Below are positions 11,779 to 36,231 of a DNA stretch of 52,233 nt, one piece after another. Numbering within the stretch: position 1 is the stretch's first letter; every line of letters starts with the position of its first letter. This stretch comes from Microcoleus sp. LEGE 07076 (lineage in GTDB: Bacteria; Cyanobacteriota; Cyanobacteriia; Cyanobacteriales; Microcoleaceae), in NCBI RefSeq assembly GCF_015207455.1, contig NZ_JADEWV010000015.1, positions 1 through 52,233 on the forward strand. Reading direction: 5' to 3'. The translations under genes were made by a program, and so were the position numbers. The notes below the pieces were generated by a model. That model did no database searches. It was not told the DNA's origin and saw nothing but the letters and a program-made list of their open reading frames with translations.

Positions 11779-12426
11779 ATGGCAAAGGTTATTGCAGTTA
11801 CAGAAGCAATTAAAAGCCTTGCTGAGGCTGAATCAAGGTTGAATTTGAGCCGAACAGAGGATGAGGCTTTTTTTACTGAGTGGCTAGCCCAATTGCCAAG
11901 TCCCAGCGATGCTGAACAGACTGCTTTAGATACGCTACGACGCAGATTGCTATATCATAGAGCAGATGGAGAATTGTTAGAAGGGTCAGTGACTTTGCTG
12001 GTGGCATCACCTTTGTTAGAACTGGCGGGTTTCTACGATCCACCGTTTAGAATGAAGGCTGAAGCTGCGGTCGAAATTGCGATCGATGATGGGGAAGAAA
12101 CGCTGCGGGGACGCATTGATATTTTGATTTTGCTTCAGCAGCTTTGGGTAATGGTTTTGGAGTGTAAGAAGACTACGATTTCGGTGCGATCGGCATTACC
12201 CCAAGCATTAGCATACATGATGGCAAATCCCGATCTGGATCAACCGAGGTTTGGGGTGTTGACGAATGGTGATGATGTGTTGTTTGTGAAACTTATGGCT
12301 CAACCTACGCCCGAATACGGGTTATCGCGGGCATTTTCGATCTATACTGTGCGTAGTGAATTGCGCTCGGCTTTTCAAGTCTTGAAGCATTTAGGGCAAA
12401 GCATTACTAGATCGGACGGCGGTTGA
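11779..12426 (+). CDS. Restriction-endonuclease-type (HsdR-like) nuclease-fold protein
   Basis: A 215-residue protein resembling the short cyanobacterial proteins labelled as type I restriction subunit R. The segment GRIDILILLQQLWVMVLECKK gives the D-x(n)-E-x-K signature of the PD-(D/E)XK fold, and an earlier helix carries a conserved acidic residue. There are no helicase, specificity or methylase parts nearby, so it is not a complete restriction system. Its function in DNA cleavage is inferred only. The stop codon lies inside a dispersed repeat (12415-12516), so the last residues SDGG are repeat-derived and the native C-terminus may have been longer. ATG 11779 follows GTGAAGGA. Confidence 0.7.
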   Translation: MAKVIAVTEAIKSLAEAESRLNLSRTEDEAFFTEWLAQLPSPSDAEQTALDTLRRRLLYHRADGELLEGSVTLLVASPLLELAGFYDPPFRMKAEAAVEIAIDDGEETLRGRIDILILLQQLWVMVLECKKTTISVRSALPQALAYMMANPDLDQPRFGVLTNGDDVLFVKLMAQPTPEYGLSRAFSIYTVRSELRSAFQVLKHLGQSITRSDGG

Positions 12427-12516
12427 AACCGCGTCTACACAAACGATGTCCGCCTCCGCGGACTAAGAAATAAAGGGGTATTTAAGATAAGACGGCGGTT
12501 TCAACCACCGAGTCTT
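12415..12516. repeat. Dispersed repeat supplying the stop codons of two convergent genes
   Basis: GACGGCGGTTGAAACCGCG at the left and GACGGCGGTTTCAACC near the right are related copies, with CCGCCTCCGCGGACTAAG between them. Both flanking genes (ending 12426 plus, 12501 minus) terminate inside it. It resembles a common intergenic repeat of filamentous cyanobacteria. A bidirectional terminator role is possible. Confidence 0.6.
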
Positions 12517-13886
12517 ATGGTGGCATATTGCCTCAATACAGGTGAAATAGTGTAAAATTTTGCTTGTTGTTCTATCAAGCAGCGCCGCGATAAAGATTGC
12601 AGCGCATTTACCAAATCTGAGGCGGGAATTTGGCTATTTTCTAGCAATTGGGTGAGGTTAATTGCATCGCTTGCTTTGGCTAACAAGGAGATTACTTGTT
12701 TTTCTAGTTCGGATAGGCGGCTAAATTGCTGCTGTAAAACATCTTTCAAATCTTCTGGCAACAATATGGTATCATTTGGTAATAACTGATTCACGCCGCC
12801 TCCCAATTCTTGAATCAGAGTCGCCACGCTTTTTAACCATAGGGGATTTCCTTGGTAGCGATGAATGAGTGTTTCAATGTTATCGCTTTCTGCTAACCCA
12901 TAATCTATCAGAATTTTCCGTCCGGCTGCGATGTCTAAACCCTTGAGTTGTAAGGTACGAATGGAAGTATTTTGGTTTTTAACTTGAGTCACTTCTCTGG
13001 GTTGTTCCCAACCAATTAACATCAAGCAGCTTTGATGGGATAATTTTTCTATTTGTTTGAATAAAGTGCGATATTCTTCGCATTCAGGTTTATATTTTCC
13101 TGCGAATTCGCCGCCACAAAAAAGGTTGTGAACGTCATCTAATATTATTAAACAGCGATGGTTTTGTAAATACTTAATTAACGGTAAGGGTTTCTGGTTG
13201 GTTGGGGATGAATCTGGTTTTTGTGAATTGGAAAAAAGCTGTGTTAGGTTAGATTGAAATTTATCTATGGTGGGGAATTCGTCGAGGGTGTACCAAGCTG
13301 TGTACTCAAACTCGTGTTTGATTTGTTGTACGAGTTGTACTGCTAGGGTGGTTTTGCCGATGCCGCTGATACCGGTGAGGGTGATGAGGCGGCTGTGTTG
13401 TTGTAGAATCCAGGTGGTGAGGGTGTCGAGAGAGGAAGTGCGATCGTAGAAAGCACCCAACTCCGGCATTTCGCTTAAATCTTGATGTAGAGTTTTGATT
13501 TGTTTTGAGTTAGATGTTTCCTGATTTGGTGGCTGTGAGTTGGGTAGTTCTGGTGGGTGTCTAGCTTGTCCGCAAATGTTGAAAATACTGCTCACTACAA
13601 CATCTTGTGCAAAGTTTACAACATTAGAGTTTTGCAACCTCTCCATTGTCGATCGAAAATTTGTTTTATTAACATCTTCTCCCAACTCTTCTGAGAGTAT
13701 CGGCCATAACTTTGAGCCAACATCCCTGACATAACTCTCGTTACAGTGAATCTCCTCGGCAATTTTGGTATATTTCTCACCTTGCATGGTTCCTCGCAGA
13801 ATTGCCTCTTGTAAGTTATCGAGGTGCTGACCGGTTTTGGCAAACACCACCTCGTCAGCCATTTTTAACACTTCCTTAAGATTCAT
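12501..13886 (-). CDS. STAND-type NTPase with vMAP-like N-terminal helix-turn-helix domain
   Basis: 461 residues. Residues 1-90 (MNLKEVLKMADEVVFAKTGQ ... YTKIAEEIHCNESYVRDVGS) form a small HTH domain that I recognise from cyanobacterial vWA-MoxR-associated conflict proteins. Residues 150-400 are an NB-ARC/STAND P-loop module: Walker A GISGIGKTTLA, Walker B RCLIILDDVH, then GNPLWLKSVA of the GxP motif. A short winged-helix region ends the protein. Usual STAND regulators carry WD40, TPR or LRR sensor repeats after the NTPase; none is present here, and the C-terminus runs into a repeat. It may be a truncated signalling or defence ATPase. It is divergent from the trpS-like operon with 213 bases between. 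Confidence 0.82.
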   Translation of the reverse strand: MNLKEVLKMADEVVFAKTGQHLDNLQEAILRGTMQGEKYTKIAEEIHCNESYVRDVGSKLWPILSEELGEDVNKTNFRSTMERLQNSNVVNFAQDVVVSSIFNICGQARHPPELPNSQPPNQETSNSKQIKTLHQDLSEMPELGAFYDRTSSLDTLTTWILQQHSRLITLTGISGIGKTTLAVQLVQQIKHEFEYTAWYTLDEFPTIDKFQSNLTQLFSNSQKPDSSPTNQKPLPLIKYLQNHRCLIILDDVHNLFCGGEFAGKYKPECEEYRTLFKQIEKLSHQSCLMLIGWEQPREVTQVKNQNTSIRTLQLKGLDIAAGRKILIDYGLAESDNIETLIHRYQGNPLWLKSVATLIQELGGGVNQLLPNDTILLPEDLKDVLQQQFSRLSELEKQVISLLAKASDAINLTQLLENSQIPASDLVNALQSLSRRCLIEQQAKFYTISPVLRQYATIRLGG

Positions 13887-13924
13887 GCAGCATCGTGGAT
13901 GTTGTGATTTTCCGTATTATACCT

Positions 13925-13964
13925 AACATTTTCCAACATTTTCCAACATTTTCCAACATTTTTT
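13925..13964. repeat. Tandem 10-bp repeat (AACATTTTCC, about 4 copies)
   Basis: Three exact units and a fourth degenerate one (AACATTTTTT) run head to tail in the divergent promoter region. The 10-bp period equals one DNA helical turn, so stacked protein binding sites are possible. The repeat is 136 bases upstream of the trpS-like gene and 39 bases upstream of the STAND gene. Confidence 0.8.
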
Positions 13965-13984
13965 AGACAGGGCGGGTTGGATTA

Positions 13985-14020
13985 GCCAACAAAATTGCCA
14001 ACAAAATTGCCAACAAATAA
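13985..14020. repeat. Tandem 12-bp repeat (GCCAACAAAATT, 3 copies)
   Basis: Two exact copies and a third ending in ATAA. Together with the adjacent 10-bp repeat it fills the short space between the STAND gene and the six-gene operon, where the promoters must lie. Confidence 0.75.
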
Positions 14021-14099
14021 TAATTATTTTGCAAGCTCATTAATATAAATTGAAGTTAAATTACTCTCCTGCTTAATAGCTGCGGATTTTAACTTAACT

Positions 14100-15536
14100 A
14101 TGACAGACGCCTCTTTATTGAGAGAAAAAAACTGCCCTCACAACGTCGTTTACGAGTTTGAGCCTTCCAAGTTGGTCAGGACTTTTATTTTAGAAAGCAC
14201 TCAAAAAGACTTAATCTTTATCTGTGAAGAAAACTTGGGTTCGCCAGAATCATTGCTAGACCTGTCGGTGCTAGAGACGCTACTGGGATCGTCTTCACTT
14301 ACATACAATCCAAGTGGAGTGGCAGATGCACTCTCTTTGATTGCAACAAAAAGCAGTGTACAACGGGTGATCCTGGATGAGTCAGTATTTGACCGGGATT
14401 TAGTCTATCTACCAACAGCAGGGCGGAATGCTGCTATTGAAATTAGACCGGACGATCTGCGAAAAGTGCTGATAGATTTAGGCTTTGATTCTGAAGCGGA
14501 CAAGCCAAAGCTGATTACTTATGATTTTGGCTACACAACTAATAACCAGACCACTCAACACCGAGTTATTTCCGGCATTCAGTCATCAGGGGATATGACG
14601 CTGGGGAATTATTTGGGAGCGATTATTAACTGGAAAAAGCAGATCGAAAAGTACGATGAGAATTTCTTTTTCATCGCTGATTTGCACAGCTTAACTGTAT
14701 TGCCTGACCCGGCTGATTTGCGAGATCGCATTCGCAAGACTGTAATGACTTTGATTGCCTGCGGTCTGGATTTAGAGAAGGCTGCACTGTTCCGTCAGAG
14801 CGATCTGGGTGGCTATCATACTGAACTTGCCTGGATTTTTAGCTGCTTGACACCAGAGGGCCGGTTAGAGCAGATGACCCAATTTAAGGATAAGTCACAG
14901 AAGCAGCAGATGATAGGAACTGGTTTGAAGACTTATCCTATTTTGATGGCGGCGGATATTTCTTTGTACCAGGCAACTCTTGTACCTGTAGGAGACGATC
15001 AGCGGCAACACCTAGAACTGTGTCGGGAGATTGTGCGGCGATTTAATAACCGCTATGGTTACACAATGCCTGTGCCCAAAGCTGAAGTACCGGAAGTTTT
15101 AGCGCGTGTAATGAGTTTGACTGATGGGACAAAGAAAATGTCCAAGTCAGATGAAAATCGAGACAGTTGTATCTATTTGTTAGATAGCCCGGATGAGATT
15201 AATCGCAAAATTAAACGAGCTAAGACAGACAGCGATCCTACATTAAGCTTTGATGAGAATCGGCCTGAAGTTTTTAACCTGTTAAGTATCTATCAAGTTT
15301 TATCAGGTAAGGAAAAGGAAGCAATTGAGCGTCACTTTGAAGGAAAGGGTGCGGCAGCACTTAAACAGGAATTGACAGAATTGCTGGTTGAGGAGTTAAA
15401 ACCCATTCGACAAAAATACAATGAGTTGGCTAGTAATCCCTGTCTAGTAGATGCTGTTTTGCAAAAAGGTAGGGAGCGGGTAGAGCCAATTGCTAAGCAG
15501 ACTTTGGCGATCGCTAAGCAGCGTGTGGGGTTGTAA
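14100..15536 (+). CDS. TrpS-like tryptophanyl-tRNA synthetase paralogue with N-terminal extension
   Basis: 478 residues against about 335 for ordinary bacterial TrpRS. Residues 154-478 are a complete class Ic synthetase: HRVISGIQSSGDMTLGNYLG with HIGH-like TLGN at 167-170, ADLHSLTV (His196), PILMAADISLYQ with the indole-recognising Asp at 286, VPVGDDQRQHLEL, and KMSKS at 346-350. It may therefore still activate tryptophan or an analogue. His196 is the position where an Asn change is reported to give indolmycin resistance; here it is His. Residues 1-153 match no domain I recognise. It is the first gene of a six-gene operon, with two bases separating it from the TrpA-like gene. A housekeeping trpS is expected elsewhere in the genome, so I infer a specialised role: self-protection, or aminoacyl supply for a pathway. 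Confidence 0.85.
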   Translation: MTDASLLREKNCPHNVVYEFEPSKLVRTFILESTQKDLIFICEENLGSPESLLDLSVLETLLGSSSLTYNPSGVADALSLIATKSSVQRVILDESVFDRDLVYLPTAGRNAAIEIRPDDLRKVLIDLGFDSEADKPKLITYDFGYTTNNQTTQHRVISGIQSSGDMTLGNYLGAIINWKKQIEKYDENFFFIADLHSLTVLPDPADLRDRIRKTVMTLIACGLDLEKAALFRQSDLGGYHTELAWIFSCLTPEGRLEQMTQFKDKSQKQQMIGTGLKTYPILMAADISLYQATLVPVGDDQRQHLELCREIVRRFNNRYGYTMPVPKAEVPEVLARVMSLTDGTKKMSKSDENRDSCIYLLDSPDEINRKIKRAKTDSDPTLSFDENRPEVFNLLSIYQVLSGKEKEAIERHFEGKGAAALKQELTELLVEELKPIRQKYNELASNPCLVDAVLQKGRERVEPIAKQTLAIAKQRVGL

Positions 15537-15538
15537 TT

Positions 15539-16312
15539 ATGCCACGCTTAATGACCCATTTGGTTGCCAACTATCCCAATCCGCAGGGGTTTTGTGAAGC
15601 TCTGAGGGCAATGCTTGAAGTCAATGTTGACTTTTTAGAAATTCAACTGCCCTTCACTAATCCAGTGGCAGATGGAGAGGTTATCTATCAAGCTAACCAG
15701 GTAGCTAGAGAGTACGGAGATAGTTTGAAAAAAATTCTAAATACCTGCTGCCAAATCAAGCAGAATAATTTCCCGCATAGTGCAACTAAACTGATGTTAG
15801 TAGCCTATGGAACTACCGTTCTGTATAGGGACTTAGCCGAACTGGTCGCTTTACTCAAAGATAACGGTTTTAGTGGCTTGATTATCCCCGATCTCCCTTT
15901 TGGTCGATCCCCAGAACAAACTCAACTCAGTCAATTGTGCCAACAACATCAATTACAACTAATTCCTGTAATTGCTAGAAACACTGAGGATCAACGTCTG
16001 GAGGAAATAAAAACCTGGTTAGAAGCTAACCAGCTTATCTATGCTATGGCTCGTACTGGTCAAACCGGAGAACTGACCAACCAAGCTGACCCAATAATAA
16101 GTAAGTATTTGCATGGTCTAAAGCATTCTCTATCGGACTATCAGATTGCTGTTGGATTTGGCATAAAAGATAAGGAACAAGTAAAGGATTTAAACTCCCA
16201 AGGATTTATTGCTGTAATTGGCACGGAAATTGTCAGAAGGATTAGTAAAGCCAAGCAAGCTAATTCTAGTATTTACGATGCTGTTTTTGAATTTTTACAG
16301 GAGTTGAAGTGA
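15539..16312 (+). CDS. TrpA-like tryptophan synthase alpha-chain paralogue
   Basis: 257 residues of TIM-barrel TrpA type. Catalytic Glu34 (LEIQLPF, equivalent of Salmonella Glu49) and Asp45 (VADG, Asp60) are kept, as are the loop-6 RTGQTGE (Thr183 equivalent) and the phosphate-binding VGFGI. So it could cleave indole-3-glycerol phosphate to indole. It starts directly at the first strand (MPRLMTHLVANYP), lacking about 15 residues of the usual N-terminal helix. The usual Asp56, which pairs with TrpB Lys167, is Asn41. It overlaps the next gene by four bases (GTGA). No trpC or trpF is present, so indole-glycerol phosphate must come from elsewhere. Function as indole donor is likely; pathway unknown. 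Confidence 0.86.
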   Translation: MPRLMTHLVANYPNPQGFCEALRAMLEVNVDFLEIQLPFTNPVADGEVIYQANQVAREYGDSLKKILNTCCQIKQNNFPHSATKLMLVAYGTTVLYRDLAELVALLKDNGFSGLIIPDLPFGRSPEQTQLSQLCQQHQLQLIPVIARNTEDQRLEEIKTWLEANQLIYAMARTGQTGELTNQADPIISKYLHGLKHSLSDYQIAVGFGIKDKEQVKDLNSQGFIAVIGTEIVRRISKAKQANSSIYDAVFEFLQELK

Positions 16313-17616
16313 AGAATATTTATTCTGCAAATCAGTTTGAAATACACGATCGCTATTACGGGGAAAACCAAGAATTTGGCGGTCAGTATGTCCCGGAGAT
16401 TCTATTGCCGTCTCTGGATGAGTTAGAAGCAGCTTTTCAAAAGTATCGTAATGATGCAGATTTTCTAGCTGACTTGAAAGACTTGCAGCAAGATTTTATT
16501 GGTCGCCCTAGCCCCTTGATTTTTGCTAAAAGACTCACAGAAAAACTTTGTGGCGCTAAAATTTATCTAAAAAATGAAGGTAACAATCTTACAGGCAGTC
16601 ACAAAATCAACCACTGTGTTTACCAAGTATTACTGGCGAAAAGAATGGGAAAAAAGCGGGTAATTTGCGAGACAGGAGCGGGACAGCACGGTATAGCAGT
16701 AGCAACAGTTTGTGCTAAATTTGGCTTAGATTGTGTGGTCTACATGGGGCAAAAGGACATTGAAAAGCAGTACCCAAACGTCTTTTTTATGAAACAAATG
16801 GGGGCAGATATTGTCCCCGTTTTGAAAGGTAAGCAAAGGCTTGTAGAAGCGGTAGACGCAGCTTTGGGCGATTTTCTTCAAAACCCTGACTCTTACTATA
16901 TGCTTGGTTCGGCGCTAGGGCCGCATCCCTATCCTGAAATAATGCGCGAAGCTCAAAGGATTGTGAGCGTTGAGACTAAACAACAATTGCAGGAAATAGA
17001 AGGGAGATTGCCGGATGTAGTAATAGCTTGCATCGGAGGAGGTTCAAACGCGATTGGGGCTTTTAACGAATATTTGTACGAAGAACAGGTGCGATTGATG
17101 GGAGTAGAAGCTGGAGGCGAAGGAATCGATCGGGAGGGGCGACACGCTAGCCGAATTTCATCGGGGCAAGGAAGAATTGGGGTCATGGAGGGGTTCAAGT
17201 CTTACTTTTTACTTGATGAGAATGGGCAATGTTTGCCAACAGAAACTATTTCTGCTGGTTTGAACTATGCAGGAATTGGGCCTTTACACGCTTATATGTA
17301 TTCTGTCGGTCGTCTTGAAATTAGCTCAGTTACTGATACCGAAGTTTTAAAGGCTTTTCAACTTTTAGCTGAGACAGAAGGACTGATTTCAGCTTTAGAA
17401 TCTGCTCACGCGGTGGCAAAGGCAGTAGAGGTAGCGACAGAACTTGGTAAAGATAAGATTGTGCTGGTTAATTTATCGGGTCGTGGCGATAACTATTTAT
17501 TTAATATTGCCAAAGGACTCGAAGATAAAGAGTTTAAGAGGTTCTGTCAGGAATTCTCAAAACCCCCTTCTTTATCAGAAATTATCGTCAAGAAACAACA
17601 GGTAAGCAATGCCTAG
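16309..17616 (+). CDS. TrpB-like tryptophan synthase beta-chain paralogue
   Basis: 435 residues, fold type II PLP enzyme, GTG start overlapping the TrpA stop. PLP Lys99 (GSHKIN), catalytic Glu121 (ETGAGQHG), the phosphate loop GGGSNAIG, Glu364 (SALESAHA) and Ser390 (NLSGRGD) are present. Against Salmonella TrpB by eye, three regulatory positions differ: Arg141 is Lys153, Lys167 is Val179, Asp305 is Asn319. Arg141-Asp305 closes the active site, and Lys167 contacts alpha Asp56. The motif KREDLNHTGAHK of ordinary TrpB is replaced by KNEGNNLTGSHK. It probably condenses indole or a related nucleophile with serine or another amino acid. Altered regulation or substrate range is inference. It overlaps the MFS gene by eight bases. 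Confidence 0.88.
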   Translation: MKNIYSANQFEIHDRYYGENQEFGGQYVPEILLPSLDELEAAFQKYRNDADFLADLKDLQQDFIGRPSPLIFAKRLTEKLCGAKIYLKNEGNNLTGSHKINHCVYQVLLAKRMGKKRVICETGAGQHGIAVATVCAKFGLDCVVYMGQKDIEKQYPNVFFMKQMGADIVPVLKGKQRLVEAVDAALGDFLQNPDSYYMLGSALGPHPYPEIMREAQRIVSVETKQQLQEIEGRLPDVVIACIGGGSNAIGAFNEYLYEEQVRLMGVEAGGEGIDREGRHASRISSGQGRIGVMEGFKSYFLLDENGQCLPTETISAGLNYAGIGPLHAYMYSVGRLEISSVTDTEVLKAFQLLAETEGLISALESAHAVAKAVEVATELGKDKIVLVNLSGRGDNYLFNIAKGLEDKEFKRFCQEFSKPPSLSEIIVKKQQVSNA

Positions 17617-18790
17617 AAACATCCTGATAATTCTACTAGGAATGCTTGCTTTTGGTTTTGCGGGTGGTGCCAGTGGTCCTGTGATTATTGAGATTATTGG
17701 TAAGAGCAAAGATCCTCTCACCAATGCCTTCTATAACGGTTTCCCCTACGTTATGTACTTTATAGCTGCTCCTTTGGCTGCCAAACTCATAGAACGTTCA
17801 GGGGGTCGCGCATCCCTGCTGGTCGGCTCATTATTCGTGAATGGGGCACTTGGATGTTTTGCTCTGTTTTATAATTCTTCAAGAGGGCTGTTTATTACCA
17901 ATTTTATCGTCATCACAGGAGCTGCTTTTTTACGGGTAGGTGGCAACACAGTTATCAATCAAAACGCGCAACCAATTAGAGAGCTAGCACAGCCTTTATT
18001 TTCTCTCTCAACTAAAGTGGGAACACTTTTGGGGAGGGGTTCGCTAGAGTTATCCACGCTAGTTCCAGCGCTACAAACAGTACGGTCGTCTTACCCATTT
18101 GCACCTTTTATGATTAGTGGTGCTGCCTTTGTGCTATCTTCTACCGCTGCCCTGCTATTTTTATGGAAACCACAAAAAACAGTATCTATCCCTCAAAATA
18201 GCAAGCCAAAACTAACAACAGATGAATATTTTTCTGTGCTTCCACTCCCTAGCATAATCGCTATTTTCCTGTCTAGGTTTGTCGAAAGTTCCATGGCGTT
18301 TAGCATTGTCATTCTGTTTCATTCAAATTACGAAGGATTTTTGAGATCGCAGTCTATAGGGGTCTGTACTACGGCTATAGTTTTGGCTATAGCTGGACAT
18401 TTCTATAAAGGGCTACTGTCCAGCTTTTTAACAGTAGAAATAGTGATTGTACTCAATTTCTTGGTAATTGCCGGATATGGGGTTTTGATTTCCGCCACTA
18501 CCAATATACTGATATTATCACTTTCATTTTTAGTTTTGGGGGCGATCGCCAACTGTCTTGACGTTTTTGGAAGGCTTTTTTACGGTAACTTTTATGATAG
18601 CCAGCCTGAAATGCAGCCGCGAGCAAGTGCAGTGGCAGAAATATTTACCAATTTCGGATCGATAGGTGGCTATATTATCCCTGGCTTCTTGCTGACTTTT
18701 TTACCAAATTACACTTGGCACGTTTGTCTGGGAGTAAGTGTGGTTGCCCTATCTCTAGGGATTTATCACCGCCTCCAATCGGCTAACTAA
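17609..18790 (+). CDS. Major facilitator superfamily transporter
   Basis: 393 residues with about 12 hydrophobic segments, beginning NILIILLGMLAFGFAGGASG. An AAKLIERSGGRASLL loop after the second segment is the MFS motif-A position, and a second half starts around residue 205. The organisation is like small drug or metabolite exporters. I see no substrate-specific motif. Its start lies inside the end of the TrpB-like gene, so translation is coupled. The most economical reading is that it exports the product of this operon or imports a precursor such as tryptophan or indole. This is inferred from position only. It is unrelated to the Mtr/TnaB tryptophan permeases, which belong to another superfamily. 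Confidence 0.82.
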   Translation: MPRNILIILLGMLAFGFAGGASGPVIIEIIGKSKDPLTNAFYNGFPYVMYFIAAPLAAKLIERSGGRASLLVGSLFVNGALGCFALFYNSSRGLFITNFIVITGAAFLRVGGNTVINQNAQPIRELAQPLFSLSTKVGTLLGRGSLELSTLVPALQTVRSSYPFAPFMISGAAFVLSSTAALLFLWKPQKTVSIPQNSKPKLTTDEYFSVLPLPSIIAIFLSRFVESSMAFSIVILFHSNYEGFLRSQSIGVCTTAIVLAIAGHFYKGLLSSFLTVEIVIVLNFLVIAGYGVLISATTNILILSLSFLVLGAIANCLDVFGRLFYGNFYDSQPEMQPRASAVAEIFTNFGSIGGYIIPGFLLTFLPNYTWHVCLGVSVVALSLGIYHRLQSAN

Positions 18791-18806
18791 ATATCAAGCA
18801 AAATAA

Positions 18807-20309
18807 ATGAAACAGGTATTAGTTATGGACTATTGCAAGAATTATAAAAATCTATTCAACTCAAGGTATAATAATATGAATAAGACAAATAATCAAGATT
18901 TCGATTCTAGGGGAGAGATAAAGATTAATATGCTGAAGCAATCTCAAGTTATTGAAATATTGCAACTGGTTAACACTGACGGTGCATCTCATTGTCACCC
19001 TGACCAAATTTTGCCACAACTACAGACAATTCGTAACCATAATCCTGATCGCATCCGCATTGAAGAAATTGGTCATTCTCGCGCTCGCCATCCTCTCTAC
19101 GCATTGCTGATAGGCGATACAAATAACAACCCTATCATCGCAGCCACTGGCAACTGTCACGCTGAAGAAGCCATCGGCACAACTACAATTCTGAAGTTAG
19201 CAGAAGCGATCGCATCTCAACCCAACTTTCAACCCATCCTAGAAAACTACTCTTTTGCCTTTATCCCACAAGCTAACCCCGACGGTACATTAAAAAACTG
19301 GGAATGGCTAAAACTCGATCGTCCTACCTACCGCGACTACCTGCGACATTACTATCGAGACAATCGTTCTGAAGATGTTGAGCATGGTATTCCTACTCCT
19401 GAAACGGCACAAGAATGCCGTCCCGAACCAGAAGCCATAGCTAAATTTTATCGTCGCTTTCCCAAAATTAGTTATTACGTTACTCTGCACTCAGCTAACG
19501 TATTTCCGGGAGCGATGTTTTTAGTAAGTCAAAAACCACCCTCTGATATTTCTGAAACTTTGCGTGCAGTCACCCATCAACAAGGTTTATCTGTGTACGA
19601 AGACAACGATAATGGCATGGATGGTTTTGAGTTTATCGAACCAGGTTTTTATGGGATTCCCCGCTTTGAGGTGATGCGCGAAAAAATGTTAGCAGGAGGA
19701 GATCCAGAGCGAATTAAAAAATTTAAGCTTAACTCATTCCAATTAGTTGAAAGCGAATGTCAATGTCAGATGTCCTTAGTATCTGAGCTACCTTACTTTC
19801 AAGTAGTGGGACTCGATGATTTAACTCCTTTATCCGATTGTATTCCTGTAGCTTGCGATCGCGAAGTCCCAAAACGCAAGCTCGTTGATTTTGAAGAGGC
19901 AAGTGCCAAGCAGCGAATGAATTTGCTTTCTTGTCTATCAGCCTCTAATTTTTCGTCACCGCTGATGGAGTTTTACCAAGAGAAAACTAAATGGTTGTTA
20001 GGAAATATTGCAGGCGATCGCCAAGATTGCCAAAAAGTCAGGGGATGTCCGGCTTTAATCAAAGACTTGCTAGAAGTCCGTATTCGACCTCTAATGCTAG
20101 AAGCTGAAATAGCTGCTATGATGATCCGGCTTTACGAGGAGTCTGGAGAAAAATCAGAGCGCGTCAAGTCAGCTATTTCGTACTATGAGGAAACATTTAA
20201 TAACGCTTGCGATCGCATAGACGGAATCGCAACAATCAAAACCGTTTATCTAGCCGATCAAGTCAAAATCCAAGCCGGAATTATTTTATCTGGACTATTA
20301 GCAAGCTAA
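18807..20309 (+). CDS. M14-family zinc carboxypeptidase-like protein
   Basis: 500 residues from the first ATG. ATG 18930 (MLKQSQVIEIL), preceded by GGGAGAG, is an equally good start and removes 41 low-complexity, Asn/Lys-rich residues. Zinc ligands His118 and Glu121 (GNCHAEEA, HxxE) and His228 (YYVTLHSA) are visible, with IPQANPDGT between them as in metallocarboxypeptidases. A Glu in PRFEVMRE is the likely general base. There is no signal peptide, so it acts in the cytoplasm. The C-terminal 160 residues are helical and unassigned. In an operon of tryptophan-type enzymes and an exporter it may trim or hydrolyse a peptide or N-acyl amino acid. That role is inference. The next gene follows after ten bases. 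Confidence 0.8.
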   Translation: MKQVLVMDYCKNYKNLFNSRYNNMNKTNNQDFDSRGEIKINMLKQSQVIEILQLVNTDGASHCHPDQILPQLQTIRNHNPDRIRIEEIGHSRARHPLYALLIGDTNNNPIIAATGNCHAEEAIGTTTILKLAEAIASQPNFQPILENYSFAFIPQANPDGTLKNWEWLKLDRPTYRDYLRHYYRDNRSEDVEHGIPTPETAQECRPEPEAIAKFYRRFPKISYYVTLHSANVFPGAMFLVSQKPPSDISETLRAVTHQQGLSVYEDNDNGMDGFEFIEPGFYGIPRFEVMREKMLAGGDPERIKKFKLNSFQLVESECQCQMSLVSELPYFQVVGLDDLTPLSDCIPVACDREVPKRKLVDFEEASAKQRMNLLSCLSASNFSSPLMEFYQEKTKWLLGNIAGDRQDCQKVRGCPALIKDLLEVRIRPLMLEAEIAAMMIRLYEESGEKSERVKSAISYYEETFNNACDRIDGIATIKTVYLADQVKIQAGIILSGLLAS

Positions 20310-20319
20310 AGGTAGTGCA

Positions 20320-21006
20320 ATGACTAGAATTTTACTGATTGATAATTATGACAGCTTTACATATAACGTTTCTCAGTGTCTCAGCGCTCTTAAACTCGGA
20401 ACCGAACACCCTGTTATTGACGTTATTCGTAACGATCAAATTACCGTAGAAGAGGTGAGAGATAGAGTTAAAGAGGGCTACTATAAAGCAATAGTGATTT
20501 CACCTGGGCCAGGTCGCCCTTCAGACGCAGGTATAACAATGGATTTAATTAGGGATCTGGGGCCAAGTTATGAACGTGAAGAAGAATTTTGGCCAGGGGT
20601 TCCGATTTTGGGCGTTTGCCTTGGACATCAAGCAATTGGTGAAGTGTTTGGTGGTCGTGTTATTTTAGCACCTGAGCCGATTCACGGTAGAACTTCACCA
20701 ATTTATCACAAACGGAAAGGTGTTTTTGCTGGCTTACCCAGCCCTTTTGACGCGACACGCTACCACTCTCTAGTTGTTGAATTAGAAACTTTACCTGAAG
20801 TCTTAGAGCGTACAGCATGGACTGCGGGAGATGATTTAATTATGGGTTTTCAGCATCGGGAATACCAATGGATTCAAGGAGTGCAGTTTCATCCTGAAAG
20901 CATACTGACAAACGATAAAGTTCGTGAAGGCTTATTACAAAACTTTCTTAACTTTATTTCAAATTCTACAGATGATGAATCTGCTGTGGGTGCATGGGAA
21001 CAATAA
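20320..21006 (+). CDS. TrpG/PabA-like glutamine amidotransferase
   Basis: 228 residues of class I glutaminase. It has LLIDNYDSFTYN at the N-terminus, SPGPGRP, the nucleophile Cys100 in GVCLGHQAIG, and the His191-Glu193 pair in VQFHPES. It should release ammonia from glutamine for a synthase partner. The ordinary partner, TrpE or PabB, is not encoded in the window. It must work with a housekeeping partner or with an unrecognised enzyme. An insert, YEREEEFWPG at 84-93, is longer than in standard TrpG. It is the last gene of the operon. A ribosome-binding AAGGTAG lies just upstream. The amidotransferase call is firm; assignment to anthranilate synthesis is not. Confidence 0.88.
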   Translation: MTRILLIDNYDSFTYNVSQCLSALKLGTEHPVIDVIRNDQITVEEVRDRVKEGYYKAIVISPGPGRPSDAGITMDLIRDLGPSYEREEEFWPGVPILGVCLGHQAIGEVFGGRVILAPEPIHGRTSPIYHKRKGVFAGLPSPFDATRYHSLVVELETLPEVLERTAWTAGDDLIMGFQHREYQWIQGVQFHPESILTNDKVREGLLQNFLNFISNSTDDESAVGAWEQ

Positions 21007-21036
21007 CATTTTGATTAAAAATGATCGCCCTTTCTA

Positions 21037-21405
21037 TCAAATTCTGAAAACTTGCACTTTTTCCTCTATATCCAATCCGCCCTCGCCTAAAGTATCAGCA
21101 GAAAAATCACGATCGATAAACTCATCTAACAGCTCAAAAAACTTATCGAGTGCTTTGCTTTCATCCTCAGAATAAAACAGAATGACGTTAGCCCAAGATT
21201 GGCTAGTCTGCACATTAAATCTTTTTCGTATCCACTCAGGAAACTGCATAAAATCGCTATCTTGTTTTGTTGGCTGTTCTCCTAACTCATATTTAGCAAC
21301 GCTGTAACCCGATAAAAAAGCCTGAAGGCAAATAATTGAGTGTCGTCCCAAGTACATTGAAGGAGCTTTCTTAATTTTCTCAATCACCGTATATAAATCG
21401 TGCAT
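21037..21405 (-). CDS. Small conserved protein, candidate immunity partner of the papain-fold toxin
   Basis: 122 residues, no signal or membrane segment, starting MHDLYTVIEKIKKAPSMYLG with SIICLQAFLSGY. I recall short proteins of this type (MYLGRxSI...FLxGY) annotated only as hypothetical, often beside toxin-like genes. It lies 42 bases downstream of the papain-fold toxin gene on the same strand, the usual place for an immunity gene. The immunity role is inferred from position alone. Its stop is 30 bases from the end of the convergent trpG-like gene. Confidence 0.6.
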   Translation of the reverse strand: MHDLYTVIEKIKKAPSMYLGRHSIICLQAFLSGYSVAKYELGEQPTKQDSDFMQFPEWIRKRFNVQTSQSWANVILFYSEDESKALDKFFELLDEFIDRDFSADTLGEGGLDIEEKVQVFRI

Positions 21406-21447
21406 TCTTTTACCTCAATATTTTTCAATAATTGTAATTTTTGCCAC

Positions 21448-21831
21448 TCAAAATTCCTCTTCTATAATCTTAAAACTTCCCATACCCAGTTCCAGAGTAG
21501 GAGATGTTAAATTTTGGAGCCATTCCTGCCGAGTCACGCCACTAAAATCTATATTATCAAAAACAATTTCCTGTTCGTCGATTGTAATTGATATCCCTTG
21601 ATGGTAGCCATTAGTAGCAATTTGCTGCTGTCGTCGTAAATCATAAATCACTGACCAAGGTAGGTCTTGCTTTTCTAAATCCAGTTTAATCTGCTTACCA
21701 TTTACATTTTTGACTGTCAAGAACTCTTTGATAGCTTGACTGCATTCAACACATTGAAAAACTCCATACAGGCTGGCAATTTTAGCGATCTCTTCTCGAA
21801 TCTCATCTAAACTACTCGGATCTAAACTCAA
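21448..21831 (-). CDS. Papain-fold toxin domain protein
   Basis: About 127 residues. A conserved Cys in VFQCVECSQAIKEFL, a His in TNGYHQGISI and an Asp in IVFDNIDFSG make a Cys-His-Asp/Asn series typical of the short papain-fold toxin 2 family. The family ending with RQEWLQNL is present. These domains usually form the C-terminus of large polymorphic toxins. Here the domain stands alone with no secretion part, as is common in cyanobacteria. An AGGAGG at 21845-21850 (minus strand) favours the TTG at 21831 as start; the frame is open back to a TTG at 21864. Target unknown (protease, deamidase or transglutaminase-like). Confidence 0.72.
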   Translation of the reverse strand: MSLDPSSLDEIREEIAKIASLYGVFQCVECSQAIKEFLTVKNVNGKQIKLDLEKQDLPWSVIYDLRRQQQIATNGYHQGISITIDEQEIVFDNIDFSGVTRQEWLQNLTSPTLELGMGSFKIIEEEF

Positions 21832-21883
21832 AGTGGAAAATTTACCTCCTATCTTTGTGTACAAGTATATCTCAAAATCTGTC

Positions 21884-22033
21884 TGGATGAATTGCTGAGT
21901 GTTGGGTCAATCCCTTCAGTGGTGCGATCGCCCCTCACAGCAAATACCAAATAGTGGGATGATTGTACAGATTGCGAGCGCCCCATAACGCATCAAGAGC
22001 GATCGCCCTTTCTTGTTTCTGATGACCGATCGC
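21884..22033. repeat. HIP1-rich dispersed repeat, copy A
   Basis: Begins GATGAATTGCTGAGTG and includes CCCTTCAGTGGTGCGATCGCCC, AAATACCAAA, GAGCGATCGCCC and CTTTCTTGTTTCTGATGA. Related copies start at 24334 and 25754. In the 25754 copy the first 24 bases are the 3' end of an open frame, so the family may derive from that gene's tail and downstream DNA. Confidence 0.65.
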
Positions 22034-22081
22034 CTATTTTCAATTATCTAAAAACATCAATCTATTAGTCAATCAGAATTA

Positions 22082-22537
22082 TTACGCAGAGCGAGTTGGT
22101 ACTGTGAAATTTGTAAACAGTCGCACATCAAACTTACTATCTCTCAACGAATTCACTAAGCGTTCATCGAGTGTTAGCAACGGTGCCATAACTTGCTCTG
22201 AAAGTGCCACATAACAGCCATCATAAGCTGTAATTCCATAGTCCAAACCAATTTGGACAGCTTCACTCATTAGATACTTCGTTGAAGTAACTTGAAATCC
22301 TAAAGCTTTCAAGTCACTTAAATCTGCCTGAACTTGTTCAGCAGTGTAAAGGTTAGCTCGAACATATTTCCAAAGAACATTAGCACACTCAATATAAAAT
22401 AGATCGGGTACGAAAAACTCAACATCCAGATCGTCGAGACAATCGAATAGTTGATTAACTTTTGGAGTCAGTGGATCGGAAATAAACTGCTTAATACAAA
22501 TATTTGTATCGATGACACATCGTAACGGAACAGTCAT
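22082..22537 (-). CDS. PIN-domain toxin (VapC-like RNase)
   Basis: 151 residues of PIN fold. The acidic metal site is visible as Asp10 in CVIDTNICIKQF, Glu in FYIECANVLW, Asp in ITAYDGCYVALSE and the final Asp in LLTLDERLV. This is a Mg-dependent endoribonuclease toxin that usually cuts tRNA or rRNA. It overlaps the upstream RHH-like antitoxin gene by four bases (ATGA), so the two are cotranslated as a type II toxin-antitoxin pair. All acidic residues are present, so it could be active. Confidence 0.9.
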   Translation of the reverse strand: MTVPLRCVIDTNICIKQFISDPLTPKVNQLFDCLDDLDVEFFVPDLFYIECANVLWKYVRANLYTAEQVQADLSDLKALGFQVTSTKYLMSEAVQIGLDYGITAYDGCYVALSEQVMAPLLTLDERLVNSLRDSKFDVRLFTNFTVPTRSA

Positions 22538-22803
22538 CTGTTGCGATCCTCTCCAATCAAAATCGTACTATCCATTAAACCAAAATCCCTTGGATTAACT
22601 CTAGGACGACTGCGAATCCTCTGTAGGATTGCTGACATTGGTTTGCTCTCTTGCGCCCGATCGATCGTTACCTTGTCAGACTCAAATGATTGCTTCAATA
22701 GACGAATGACTGCTTCATTGAGAGTCAAATTTTTTTCTGAGGCAAGATATTGAATGCGACTGTACAATTCATCAGGCAGGTTTTCAATCTGAAGTGTAGC
22801 CAT
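22534..22803 (-). CDS. VapB-like ribbon-helix-helix antitoxin
   Basis: 89 residues. MATLQIENLPDELYSRIQYLA followed by LTLNEAVIRLLKQ is a typical ribbon-helix-helix DNA-binding start (strand, then two helices). The C-terminal tail (KPMSAILQRIRSRPRVNP) should wrap the PIN toxin. The pair probably represses its own promoter. It is the first gene of the two-gene unit. Confidence 0.85.
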   Translation of the reverse strand: MATLQIENLPDELYSRIQYLASEKNLTLNEAVIRLLKQSFESDKVTIDRAQESKPMSAILQRIRSRPRVNPRDFGLMDSTILIGEDRNR

Positions 22804-22846
22804 TGCAGTCTTATAATTATTTGATTTATTATATCACCAGTTTAAG

Positions 22847-23059
22847 TTAACTTTCCACCCTACGGTAATCGCCGATGCGGATGCGATAGCGACCCGCGTA
22901 ACCTCTCATGGCTTTAATGTCAGAAATCTCCTCCAAGGTGTTGATTGCTTCTAGTGTTGTAAAAGCCAGATCGTAGATGCGTTGGTAAGATGTCGAGCTC
23001 TTCAGTTGTTTCAAGTCTTTTAGAAAAGCCTGACGGTATTGAACTTCCCAGATAACTAT
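22847..23059 (-). pseudogene. RelE/ParE-type toxin, 3'-truncated duplicate
   Basis: Identical, apart from a few bases, to the toxin at 24608 until GDYR, where homology stops at 22861. The reading then ends with RVES and TAA at 22847. About 25 C-terminal residues (IGIEVNEDVIEVMRVLHRREFYRYF in the full copy) are lost. That part normally carries the last strand and catalytic side chains, so the product should be inactive. Its antitoxin gene upstream is intact. Confidence 0.8.
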
Positions 23060-23348
23060 TCCTCAAGATAAGCTAAGGCTTGCGAGCGATTTAGCAAGGG
23101 AGTATTAACAGCTTCATCCATTGCTTTGTTCATGCAATAATCTTCTACCGCACCCGCAAGTTGAGCGACAGAAACTTCTTCATTAGGTAGTAGTAGTTGT
23201 CGCCATAGCTCAATAGGAATCACCACAGCGCTTACATCTCCGTCTTTGTTCGTAAGATATTCAATATTTAACGTTGTTTCCATGTCATACTCCCGAAACT
23301 TCCTGCAATTCTAGCTTACCTGAGAGTGCTGTGGCAATATCTGGTTTA
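22861..23348. repeat. 488-bp direct repeat, left copy (toxin-antitoxin duplication)
   Basis: Nearly identical to 24688-25175, at a constant offset of 1827 bases. It holds the antitoxin gene, most of the toxin gene and about 65 bases upstream of the antitoxin. The repeats bracket xisH-xisI. Confidence 0.93.
23056..23283 (-). CDS. RelB/Phd-like antitoxin (copy 1)
   Basis: 75 residues: METTLNIEYLTNKDGDVSAVVIPIELWRQLL, then an acidic helix ending NRSQALAYLEE. The pattern (short strand, VVIPIEyW, then helices) is that of small antitoxins paired with RelE/ParE toxins in cyanobacteria. It differs from copy 2 at two residues (Gln/Arg near residue 41 and Gln/Glu near 68). It may remain as an orphan antitoxin because its own toxin is truncated, and it could still neutralise the copy-2 toxin. 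Confidence 0.8.
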   Translation of the reverse strand: METTLNIEYLTNKDGDVSAVVIPIELWRQLLLPNEEVSVAQLAGAVEDYCMNKAMDEAVNTPLLNRSQALAYLEE

Positions 23349-23440
23349 GGATAAAATATCAAGTAAACATTGGTAGCGATCGCCCCATAACGCATCAAGA
23401 GCGATCGCTCTTTATGCAACCAAAAGCATCAACGTTAGTT

Positions 23441-23776
23441 TTAACTCACTGCAAATTCTGTGAACTGACGCATATAAGGTGGATGAAACCCAACCACAAT
23501 ATCAGACTTCGGCACACCTATATCAACCAGCTCTTGCCCTAAATCGATTTCTGTTCCATTCTGCTGAATCCAGATTTTGCCATCCTTAATATCGAGATGT
23601 ATAGGACAACCGTAAACTCGCTGTTTGTTATCCCAACCCACTCGAACAACTTGATAATGATTGTGTTCTGTGTCAAAAACAACTTGCACATCCACTTCTC
23701 CATAAGAAGGCTTGTATGCAGCATATTTCGTGAGAACTTGTTTGATACAATCCCGATATTTTTCTACTTTTTCCAT
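23441..23776 (-). CDS. xisI: XisI-like fdxN-element excision controlling factor
   Basis: 111 residues. MEKVEKYRDCIKQVLTKYA, VQVVFDTEHNHYQVVRVGWD, HLDIKDGKIWIQQNGTE and IVVGFHPPYMRQFTEFAV are the signature blocks of XisI. In Anabaena XisI is needed, with XisH and the recombinase XisF, to excise the fdxN element during heterocyst formation. Homologues are widespread in cyanobacteria that lack this element, so the role here is not known. The gene overlaps the end of xisH by 13 bases. No xisF is nearby. Confidence 0.93.
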   Translation of the reverse strand: MEKVEKYRDCIKQVLTKYAAYKPSYGEVDVQVVFDTEHNHYQVVRVGWDNKQRVYGCPIHLDIKDGKIWIQQNGTEIDLGQELVDIGVPKSDIVVGFHPPYMRQFTEFAVS

Positions 23777-24180
23777 AAAGCTATCACCTCTTCTTCTACG
23801 TCATATACTAATAATTTGAACTGGTAATCTTCCACAACTGCGATTGTAAATTCACGCTTGAAAAAATCGTTATACGCTGTCAAAGGAATTGCCAAAAATA
23901 GCTGACGTTGGGGGTCTTTAAACTTGAGTGCTGTACGGTAGTTAATAAATTGTCCAACCGCTAAATGAAAATCTGTTATCGCTGAAGTATTCAAAAAGCT
24001 CTTGATTTCTACAGCAATTTTCTCGCCCTGCCGTTCGGCTGCCAGCAGACGTTCCGCCCCCAGATCGATTAACATATCAACTCCACCCACACTGATGGAA
24101 AGTGGGTCATCTGTAATGTGCCAACCCTCCTTTTGCAACGCAATCTTCACAACATCATGAAATTTATCCTTTGCTGACAT
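23764..24180 (-). CDS. xisH: XisH-like fdxN-element excision controlling factor
   Basis: 138 residues from ATG 24180 (MSAKDKFHDVVKIALQKEGW). An open extension upstream to 24240 is not conserved in the family. The fold looks like an endonuclease: DMLIDLGAERLLAAERQGEKIAVEIKSF holds an Asp and an E-x-K as in PD-(D/E)XK enzymes. LAVGQFINYRTAL and LAIPLTAYNDFF are further XisH hallmarks. With XisI it forms a translationally coupled pair. Nuclease activity is inferred from the motif. Confidence 0.93.
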   Translation of the reverse strand: MSAKDKFHDVVKIALQKEGWHITDDPLSISVGGVDMLIDLGAERLLAAERQGEKIAVEIKSFLNTSAITDFHLAVGQFINYRTALKFKDPQRQLFLAIPLTAYNDFFKREFTIAVVEDYQFKLLVYDVEEEVIALWKK

Positions 24181-24333
24181 AAAGCCCTGATGACAAACAA
24201 CTACAATTATACTGGCGTTAATTGAGATGTGTGAGCGCAATAGTCATTACAAACACACAAGGAATGTCCGCATCCCTATCTATCGAAAGCTTACCACCAT
24301 TTCGCAAACCCCCAAAATTTGGCGGAGATCCTC

Positions 24334-24595
24334 ATGAATTGCTGAGCATGGGGTAAATCCCTTCAGTGGTGCGATCGCCCTTCACACCAAATACCAAACA
24401 CTGTGATAATTTTACGAGTTGCGTGAAGCGTAGCTATCCCGCAGGGCGATCGCCCTTTCTTGTTTCTGATGAGCGATCGCCTAAAATGAAAGATCGATCG
24501 CCCATTACACAAAATACCAAACAGTGCGATACTTGTACCAAGAGCGATCGCCCATAACACATAAAGAGCGATCGCATTTCTCTTTTACAAATCAA
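24334..24595. repeat. HIP1-rich dispersed repeat, copy B with short tail copies
   Basis: Starts TGAATTGCTGAGCATGGGG and contains seven GCGATCGC or GATCGATCG-type sites in 260 bases. The sub-phrases CAAATACCAAACA and GAGCGATCGCCC recur. It fills the gap between xisH and the second toxin gene. I find no gene in it. Confidence 0.65.
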
Positions 24596-24607
24596 GATTC
24601 CAACTGC

Positions 24608-24886
24608 TTAGGGAAAATAACGATAAAATTCCCGACGATGTAGAACACGCATCACTTCTATAACATCTTCATTAACCTCTATTCCAATACGGTAATCGCC
24701 GATGCGGATGCGATAGCGACCCGCGTAACCTCTCATGGCTTTAATGTCAGAAATCTCCTCCAAGGTGTTGATTGCTTCTAGTGTTGTAAAAGCCAGATCG
24801 TAGATGCGCTGGTAAGATGTCGAGTTCTTCAGTTGTTTCAAGTCTTTTAGAAAAGCCTGACGGTATTGAACTTCCCAGATAACTAT
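24608..24886 (-). CDS. RelE/ParE-type toxin (full-length copy)
   Basis: Reading from an ATA codon at 24886 gives IVIWEVQYRQAFLKDLKQL and so on to HRREFYRYFP, about 92 residues. This is a normal RelE/ParE length, with AGRYRIRIGDYRIGIEV (the central strands) and the basic VLHRREFY C-terminus. The usual start codons are absent at the expected position; the first is TTG at 24841, which would cut off the first strand. RelE toxins cleave mRNA on the ribosome and ParE toxins poison gyrase; this one is more RelE-like. It overlaps the antitoxin stop by a few bases. Confidence 0.75.
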   Translation of the reverse strand: MVIWEVQYRQAFLKDLKQLKNSTSYQRIYDLAFTTLEAINTLEEISDIKAMRGYAGRYRIRIGDYRIGIEVNEDVIEVMRVLHRREFYRYFP

Positions 24887-25175
24887 TCCTCAAGATAAGC
24901 TAAGGCTTCCGAGCGATTTAGCAAGGGAGTATTAACAGCTTCATCCATTGCTTTGTTCATGCAATAATCTTCTACCGCACCCGCAAGTCGAGCGACAGAA
25001 ACTTCTTCATTAGGTAGTAGTAGTTGTCGCCATAGCTCAATAGGAATCACCACAGCGCTTACATCTCCGTCTTTGTTCGTAAGATATTCAATATTTAACG
25101 TTGTTTCCATGTCATACTCCCGAAACTTCCTGCAATTCTAGCTTACCTGAGAGTGCTGTGGCAATATCTGGTTTA
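24688..25175. repeat. 488-bp direct repeat, right copy (toxin-antitoxin duplication)
   Basis: Right partner of 22861-23348, sharing all but a few bases. Recombination between them would delete xisH-xisI and one toxin-antitoxin copy. Confidence 0.93.
24883..25110 (-). CDS. RelB/Phd-like antitoxin (copy 2)
   Basis: 75 residues, identical to copy 1 except Arg for Gln near residue 41 and Glu for Gln near residue 68. It is followed directly by its toxin gene. The ATG at 25110 and the 65 bases upstream belong to the duplicated segment, so both copies share one promoter sequence. Confidence 0.82.
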   Translation of the reverse strand: METTLNIEYLTNKDGDVSAVVIPIELWRQLLLPNEEVSVARLAGAVEDYCMNKAMDEAVNTPLLNRSEALAYLEE

Positions 25176-25251
25176 TGAAACAGCTCTCGCCCAGACACAA
25201 AGCGAATGGGAGAAAGTTTGAGAGTTTAATTTAGTCAACGGGAGAACAGCA

Positions 25252-25776
25252 ATGGCATGGGTGTTTAGCTTATCGGCTGAATGTGGAATAAAACAATCTG
25301 AAGCAAAGCAATTTGCTCAATATTTTAATGAAATTTTCTGGACGCTCTCAAACGGTAGACATTCCCAATGTAGGGCAGAAATTTTTCAGGATATAGAATA
25401 AAATTGGTGGTGCCGAGTTTGTCCGAGTGGCATCAGTGAGATTGGGACAGGCACTCCAGAAAGTGCTTATTTAATGACAGAAATAGGTCTCCCTCTGTAT
25501 AATAATTTGCGGTTGGCTCCACCGTTTCGGTATGCTTTAGTTGGTATGGAAGCAGACGAGTTTAGAACCTATAGCGAATTGATTGAAGAGTCAGCCTTGG
25601 TTTTTCCAGGATTGGTTTTAGCTGAAGCTGTTTGGCAAGCGACTGGAGCGGATTCGGTTTTTCGATCGTTCACTCTTGGATATGTTTGGAAGCCGTATGA
25701 AGGTGAAGCTTACAGACCGCTAATAGCATCGCCCGAACTAAAAAACAAGCTTGATGAATTGCTGAGTGTGCGGTAA
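25252..25776 (+). pseudogene. Conserved cyanobacterial protein with one in-frame TAA
   Basis: One frame runs from ATG 25252 to TAA 25774-25776 with a single internal stop (TAA at 25399). The first part is MAWVFSLSAECGIKQSEAKQ and ends FQDIE. After the stop the frame continues with NWWCRVCPSGISEIG and TPESAYLM, then PPFRYALVGMEADEFRTYSEL to the end. From memory this is a conserved hypothetical family in cyanobacteria that is continuous at this point (about 174 residues). No frameshift has accumulated, so the stop is recent. A truncated second-half protein from ATG 25474 is possible. The 3' end is shared with a dispersed repeat. Confidence 0.65.
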
Positions 25777-25852
25777 ATCCCTGCACTGGATCGATCGACC
25801 TTCACACCAAATACCAAACACTGTGATAATTTTACGAGTTGCGTTCTCGCCT
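25754..25852. repeat. Dispersed repeat copy C (includes a gene tail)
   Basis: TGAATTGCTGAGTGTGCGG opens this copy and is also codons of the preceding frame (DELLSVR-stop). The remainder, CTTCACACCAAATACCAAACACTGTGATAATTTTACGAGTTGCG, matches copy B at 24380-24424 closely. Confidence 0.65.
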
Positions 25853-25854
25853 TT

Positions 25855-27635: not shown

Positions 27636-27798
27636 AGTTCAAGGTGTGCTAAATGTTGTTATGTTTAACTATTTTTGTAGAATAGGGATACTTAGCTATT
27701 CTACTGTGTTTCGTTGCGCCTGACTAAAAGTCAGTATTTAACCCTGCAATTATAGCAGATCAAGCGATTTGTTGCTTAAGTCCTATTAATTAACCAAA

Positions 27799-28407: not shown

Positions 28408-28496
28408 TCTATTTTAATATTGCTAGCCATTATATAGTGTAACCCTGGTAGGGACAGCATGAAATCCCATTCAAAACTTAGCGAACAAAGTCGAGC

Positions 28497-36159: not shown

Positions 36160-36198
36160 TTAATTGGGAAATAAGGAATGGGAAAAGAATTAAAAATC

Positions 36199-36220: not shown

Positions 36221-36231
36221 AATTGGAAAAT

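Follow-up and report, generated by a model that had tools for sequence, protein, structure and literature searches.

A 52,233-nucleotide contig of the cyanobacterium Microcoleus sp. LEGE 07076 (NZ_JADEWV010000015.1), hereafter termed the window, carries six consecutive genes that encode homologues of TrpS, TrpA, TrpB, a major facilitator superfamily (MFS) transporter, an M14 peptidase and TrpG. The trp genes of this operon are accessory, because second trpS, trpA, trpB and trpG genes are found on other contigs of the same genome. The operon TrpS is a tryptophanyl-tRNA synthetase (TrpRS) with an N-terminal extension that likely has an INS-like fold. Our tentative preference is to regard the operon as an accessory pathway through which a tryptophan-like antimetabolite is made, exported and/or tolerated, with TrpS serving as a self-protection copy.

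Accessory tryptophan genes in a six-gene operon

The genome is 6.79 Mb in size and 99.6% complete, and the operon resides on a 52 kb contig. A genome search located the second TrpA on contig 411, TrpB on contig 121, TrpS on contig 161 and TrpG on contig 444. The operon proteins share 27% (TrpA), 51% (TrpB) and 56% (TrpG) identity with their second copies by tblastn, and the catalytic parts of the two TrpS proteins are 48% identical. Thus, the accessory status proposed in the preliminary description, which would have failed had these been the only trpS, trpA and trpB copies, is borne out, and the paralogy is evident from the sequences compared. The features of the operon are as follows.

13887..14099, + strand: upstream intergenic region, with one promoter-like match at 13995-14024 and no Rfam family
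14100..15536, + strand: TrpS paralogue (478 amino acids), an N-terminal extension followed by a complete bacterial TrpRS (TIGR00233)
14160..14471, + strand: probable INS/YbaK/ProX-like domain of the TrpS extension (residues ~21-124; profile and fold), with Arg27 at the catalytic Lys position
15539..16312, + strand: TrpA paralogue, tryptophan synthase alpha (TIGR00262); E49, D60 and T183 kept, D56 replaced by N
16309..17616, + strand: TrpB paralogue, tryptophan synthase beta, with a GTG start (TIGR00263); K87, E109 and S377 kept, R141K, K167V and D305N changed
17609..18790, + strand: MFS transporter (PF07690, MFS_1)
18807..20309, + strand: M14 zinc carboxypeptidase-like protein (Peptidase_M14), with H118-x-x-E121, H228 and candidate catalytic E327
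20320..21006, + strand: TrpG/PabA-type glutamine amidotransferase (TIGR00566), with GVCLGHQ and FHPES motifs

The order of these plus-strand genes and the spacing of their open reading frames (ORFs), with junctions of +2, -4, -8, +16 and +10 bases, agree with the preliminary description. From this spacing, the six genes would be transcribed as one unit. The upstream NB-ARC gene (12501-13886) diverges from these six genes and the downstream ORF (21037-21405) converges on them, so the operon is taken to consist of the six. Promoter-like matches in the upstream region number 16, against 15.8 expected, which is the level of chance. Neither a special tRNA-Trp nor an Rfam leader is present in the window, whose sole tRNA is a tRNA-Lys at 10236; short leader peptides were not searched for.

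The family assignments made earlier, of tryptophan-synthesis or charging homologues, a glutaminase, an MFS protein and a zinc carboxypeptidase-like protein, all pass the applicable cut-offs. Scores for NCBIfam models (cut-offs in parentheses) are 319 bits for TrpS with TIGR00233 (176.75), 129 for TrpA with TIGR00262 (102), 510 for TrpB with TIGR00263 (392) and 188 for TrpG/PabA with TIGR00566 (121). The corresponding Pfam scores are 39.5 bits for MFS_1 (33.4) and 71.8 bits for Peptidase_M14 (21.6).

The Cys-His-Glu motifs of TrpG are present as GVCLGHQ at 98 and FHPES at 190. At an E value of 0.001, the genome contains two chorismate-binding enzymes: one is of the TrpE type (C444; 517.2 bits, marginally under the 517.7 cut-off for TIGR00564), and the other is an isochorismate synthase (C377). 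Neither is encoded within the operon, and the operon TrpG therefore has no partner of its own. An ordinary trp operon was also considered and rejected, given that the unit lacks trpE, trpD, trpC and trpF and the genome has further copies of its trp genes on other contigs. The operon resembles a canonical trp operon in having TrpA, TrpB and TrpG and in the overlap of trpA with trpB, but trpS and the MFS and M14 genes stand in place of trpE, trpD, trpC and trpF.

The M14 protein has the zinc-ligand motif HxxE...H at H118, E121 and H228, assigned partly by eye; the roles of these residues and of E327 are presumed. Its C-terminal part matches no family at an E value of 0.01, and its start is uncertain among several in-frame ATGs. 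For the MFS protein, all matches other than MFS_1 are to unrelated NCBIfam models and fall below cut-off, and none is found among PDB sequences. The label "exporter-type" given to it previously is therefore not supported.

The extension and catalytic body of TrpS

The TrpS extension comprises ~150 residues (1-149). Its match to the Pfam model tRNA_edit (PF04073) falls below the cut-off (15.7 versus 25.5 bits; E value 0.016; positions 77-122 on 77-122), and the NCBIfam model YbaK (E value 0.043) and YbaK in the PDB (E value 0.63, third among nine weak matches) give similarly weak matches. However, comparison with a profile of 17 YbaK-type proteins yields a P value of 5.8e-5 and a probability of 66% over residues 21-124. 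The profile score of 33.8 exceeds both the best of 300 shuffles (21.3) and the best of 22 pieces of other operon sequence (19.0).

Structure prediction points in the same direction. A model of the extension built with YbaK sequences in the alignment has a mean pLDDT of 70, although it may be steered by these sequences. Foldseek finds 25 matches to it at an E value of 0.001 or better, which include ProX, YbaK and ProXp-ala structures; the best is ProX (8huz; E value 1.5e-7, TM 0.68). Two longer signalling proteins of related fold, 3mem and SadB, are also among the matches, and the fold is therefore not confined to editing. When only TrpRS sequences are supplied, pLDDT is below 50 over residues 1-116 and 127-151 (all but 117-126), yet the strands and helices between residues 87 and 126 nearly coincide with those of the first model. 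We are therefore fairly confident that the extension is a degenerate tRNA-editing fold of the YbaK/ProX (INS) type.

In both alignments, Arg27 occupies the catalytic lysine column, and the glycine-rich loop conserved in the family has degenerated. The lysine, K46 of Haemophilus influenzae YbaK, is described as important (PMC3532385). Classical hydrolytic editing by the extension is unlikely. The extension shares its fold and profile with the INS domain of prolyl-tRNA synthetase (ProRS) and with YbaK/ProXp trans-editing factors, but differs from them in its fusion to a class I TrpRS, in the Lys-to-Arg replacement and in the degenerate loop. According to a review, INS members are single-domain proteins except for the INS domain of ProRS, while the legend of one of its figures also lists ProXp-ala forms that carry a C-terminal domain or are joined to ProRS (PMC11295145). 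The excerpted literature on TrpRS, YbaK and editing domains describes no such TrpRS fusion. Relatives of the operon TrpS in named genomes are 44-52% identical to it among the matches listed (80 of 579). In all 80 of these loci, the open frame above the TrpRS catalytic part reaches at most 46 residues (21 when only ATG starts are allowed), so none of them carries the 150-residue extension. We know of no TrpRS that carries an editing domain.

A search of the genome with PF04073 at an E value of 0.1 does not list the TrpS extension; a ProRS locus is the sole match, and no stand-alone YbaK is found. In the ORF that we read as ProRS (G000:C376:38694-38864), the tRNA_edit match is confined to model positions 1-53, and many relatives likewise match positions 1-52 to 1-56. 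This suggests that the ProRS INS domain is reduced in this genome and in many relatives.

The catalytic body of TrpS is conserved. Fifty-six columns are identical in the window TrpS and 20 other TrpRS proteins, namely KMSKS (346-350) and 51 more, and the Gly-Asn (169-170) of the HIGH-type motif is likewise identical. The residues that we take to form the tryptophan pocket are H196, M283, D286, V295, V297 and Q301, and most of these positions are among the 56 columns. Because of this conservation, the operon TrpS is probably active on tryptophan. It departs from other TrpRS proteins at 17 positions that are common to at least 90% of 76 others, and the housekeeping copy departs likewise at four of the 17. 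The operon copy has Ser288 where all 76 others have Leu.

These observations bear on the idea that the TrpRS has a non-translational use. In such a scheme, Trp-tRNA or Trp-AMP would serve as donor in making a small peptide or conjugate that the INS-like domain handles, the M14 enzyme trims and the MFS protein exports, while TrpG, TrpA and TrpB merely supply tryptophan. An INS-like domain without the catalytic lysine suits binding or transfer rather than hydrolysis, a peptidase and a transporter lie within the operon, and proteins derived from aminoacyl-tRNA synthetases are known in the synthesis of bioactive molecules (PMC9437257). However, the TrpRS looks complete for tRNA charging, and the six proteins include no recognizable acyl-tRNA-using enzyme, although short precursor peptides were not searched for. 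We consider this scheme improbable.

Changed residues in the operon tryptophan synthase

The operon TrpA and TrpB were compared with 46 other TrpA and 33 other TrpB sequences, with Escherichia coli numbering taken from the K-12 genes. TrpA keeps E49, D60 and T183; E49 is present in all 46 others and D60 in 43. TrpB keeps H86, K87, E109, S235, N236, E350 and S377, with K87 and E109 present in all 33 others. Thus, catalytic motifs are conserved in both subunits.

By contrast, allosteric residues are changed. R141, K167 and D305 of TrpB are replaced by K, V and N, whereas all three are kept in 31 of the 33 others. The two sequences without this set, L064 and L092, both belong to the trpB_rel family. 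In two genomes labelled Dorea, their genes (L064:6309-7460 and L092:6074-7225) precede trpS by ~2.5-2.8 kb. Residue 56 of TrpA is Asn, and is acidic in all 46 others (26 D, 20 E). The contact between alpha D56 and beta K167 lies at the alpha-beta interface. R141 and D305 form a salt bridge of the closed state, and replacement of either by Ala alters both intermediates and substrate specificity (PMC9512447). A K-N pair at positions 141 and 305 is not described in the excerpted text of that paper. The window copy also differs at 10 of 69 TrpB columns and 10 of 31 TrpA columns that are conserved in at least 95% of sequences.

The kept and changed residues bear differently on the idea that the operon is a backup or resistant cassette for tryptophan supply and charging. 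Here, the second copies of TrpG, TrpA, TrpB and TrpS would sustain ordinary tryptophan metabolism when a competitor's inhibitor or loss of tryptophan blocks the housekeeping set, and the MFS and M14 proteins would expel or cleave the inhibitor. All four enzymes pass NCBIfam cut-offs with catalytic motifs kept, the tryptophan pocket of TrpS looks ordinary, the unit has no tailoring enzymes, and defence-like genes surround it. However, the allosteric changes in TrpA and TrpB are not required for making plain tryptophan, and no known inhibitor-resistance change is seen. TrpE, the usual feedback target, is not duplicated. We judge the cassette somewhat unlikely.

Distribution, surroundings and possible function

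Searches for relatives used one gene at a time against samples of genomes, not all genomes, and the cyanobacterial samples overlap. A second such operon was not found among 385 cyanobacteria, 60 genomes of the family, 387 of the order, 398 of another phylum and 20 more. The six-gene set is therefore rare, as judged from these samples. The TrpS extension is absent from the 385 other genomes of the phylum (an even sample of 386), except for one match with an E value of 9.5e-4 and three internal stops; in the same sample, the M14 protein has partial, distant matches (E value 6.5e-7 or weaker) in eight genomes. No TrpA in the 60 other genomes of the family reaches an E value of 1e-25. Of 387 other genomes sampled from the order, 12 reach 1e-24 (best 1.1e-26, 29% identity), and these matches are read as housekeeping TrpA. 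Among 398 genomes of the phylum that includes a Rickettsiaceae genome, 63 pass 1e-20 (best 7.5e-31, 35%). Twenty of these 63 loci were fetched with ~1.5 kb on each side: TrpB adjoins TrpA in 19, the remaining locus is incomplete, and none has a match to TrpS, MFS, M14 or TrpG. A further 20 genomes reached through TrpS matches yielded a TrpA match in 11 (best 1.5e-25).

Plasmid- or virus-borne relatives were considered and rejected, because plasmid matches are distant or partial and no viral relative was confirmed. TrpA has matches in 93 plasmid records, with at most 31% identity among the 30 of 93 listed. The M14 protein matches three Haladaptatus plasmids over 17% of its length, the MFS protein has no match in plasmids, and DNA of the operon region (12-24 kb) has no plasmid match by megablast. 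Exact-peptide scans of viral contigs for TrpA and the M14 protein confirmed no relative. In trees of TrpB (32 sequences, after L064 and L092 were dropped from 34) and TrpS (29 sequences chosen from 77), the window copies are on long branches and no donor is identified.

Third-codon-position GC content (GC3) is 0.29-0.44 in the six operon genes, compared with 0.46-0.62 in five hand-picked core-type genes of the window; the two genes immediately upstream of the operon have values of 0.41 and 0.43. The operon lies in a stretch of lower GC (11779-29105) with defence- or toxin-like genes: HSDR_N-type (11779-12426) and NB-ARC (12501-13886) on the left, and Tox-PL-2 (21448-21864), PIN (22082-22537), XisH (23764-24240) and HEPN beside GmrSD_N (25855-27635) on the right. 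Because operon GC3 is low and defence-like genes surround it, the region suits an acquired island. PADLOC gives no defence-system match for the six operon proteins. There is no sign of a contaminant contig, because other genes on it, such as an aldehyde decarbonylase, are cyanobacterial in kind.

Two other features of the window were observed. Adjacent Uma2-family ORFs of 202 amino acids each (27799-28407 and 28497-29105) are very similar by eye, and are perhaps a recent duplication. A long-chain aldehyde decarbonylase is followed by a reductase-like ORF and then an ORF that we presume to be accA-like (35467-37326); the first two are arranged as in the alkane gene pair of cyanobacteria.

Another explanation is that the trp genes were acquired horizontally and form a decaying or chance assembly without a shared function. 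This would fit the failure to find the set in the other genomes searched, the GC3 values below those of core-type genes and the long branches. Yet all six ORFs are intact, all five junctions are overlapping or at most 16 bases, and catalytic motifs are kept in five enzymes. The combination of overlapping ORFs with four Trp-related paralogues in one unit is therefore unlike a chance cluster, and we regard such an assembly as highly improbable.

Precedents for self-protection are known. Producers of albomycin, mupirocin and indolmycin carry second aminoacyl-tRNA synthetase genes for self-resistance (PMC9437257), and a tryptophan-tRNA ligase gene occurs in an indolmycin cluster (PMC5069768). Canavanyl-tRNA deacylase, which is encoded beside canavanine genes, is an editing factor specialized for one antimetabolite (PMC10018355). 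Like indolmycin-type clusters of Streptomyces and Pseudoalteromonas, the operon has a TrpRS gene next to the rest of a tryptophan-related unit (PMC5069768), and its TrpRS is a second copy, which in those clusters is insensitive (PMC9437257). Unlike them, it has TrpA, TrpB and TrpG, and has no aminotransferase or methyltransferase among its six genes. Its TrpS also keeps His at the presumed resistance position. The auxiliary TrpRS II that works with nitric oxide synthase (PMC9437257) is likewise a second TrpRS, but the six genes, to which this comparison was confined, include no nitric oxide synthase. The operon is neither a case of indolmycin-type self-resistance nor one of a canavanine-type dedicated editing factor. 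Literature searches joining TrpRS and tryptophan synthase with cyanobacteria and biosynthetic gene clusters, or with self-resistance and gene clusters, found nothing, and the excerpted chuangxinmycin literature yielded nothing on resistance.

In the antimetabolite pathway that we tentatively favor, the operon TrpG, acting with the one housekeeping TrpE, would raise flux into the pathway, and TrpA would yield indole or an indole analogue. TrpB, with its altered closed-state lock, would join this product to serine or another donor to give tryptophan or an analogue. TrpS would charge tryptophan while rejecting or tolerating the analogue, aided in tRNA handling or rejection by its INS-like domain. 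The M14 enzyme may trim or inactivate a peptide or amide form, and the MFS protein may carry the product out. This explanation draws support from the accessory status of the genes, their coupled ORFs, the kept catalytic residues accompanied by changes at R141, K167, D305 and alpha D56, the INS-like domain, the long TrpB and TrpS branches and the single TrpE-type gene. The INS-type fold also lends some support to the earlier suggestion that TrpS either charges the product or protects the cell from it, although the product, its export and immunity are matters that we infer.

Several observations weigh against an antimetabolite pathway. No tailoring enzyme (halogenase, methyltransferase or oxygenase) that could convert tryptophan is among the six genes, and the direction of transport by the MFS protein is not supported by its sequence. 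The INS-like domain scores below the Pfam cut-off and has no catalytic lysine. The presumed tryptophan-pocket residues are those of ordinary TrpRS proteins; His196 occupies what we take to be the His43 position, and the presumed indolmycin-resistance change is not present. K141 and N305 may still hydrogen-bond, so that the lock would be weakened rather than lost, and because overall divergence of TrpA and TrpB is high, their changes need not have been selected for a new substrate. Finally, the preliminary description named a chance cluster without conservation in any relative as evidence against its proposal. As far as the samples go, no relative has the set, and conservation therefore gives no support.

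A more specific form of the proposal is that the tryptophan synthase has been retuned to produce an analogue of tryptophan, with immunity provided by a TrpRS that carries an appended INS-type domain. We consider this form unlikely. If it is true, this TrpRS would be, to our knowledge, the first to carry a proofreading-type domain, and its position beside a retuned tryptophan synthase would imply a tryptophan analogue that requires proofreading. The operon might then lead to a TrpRS-directed compound and to a natural synthase of tryptophan analogues.

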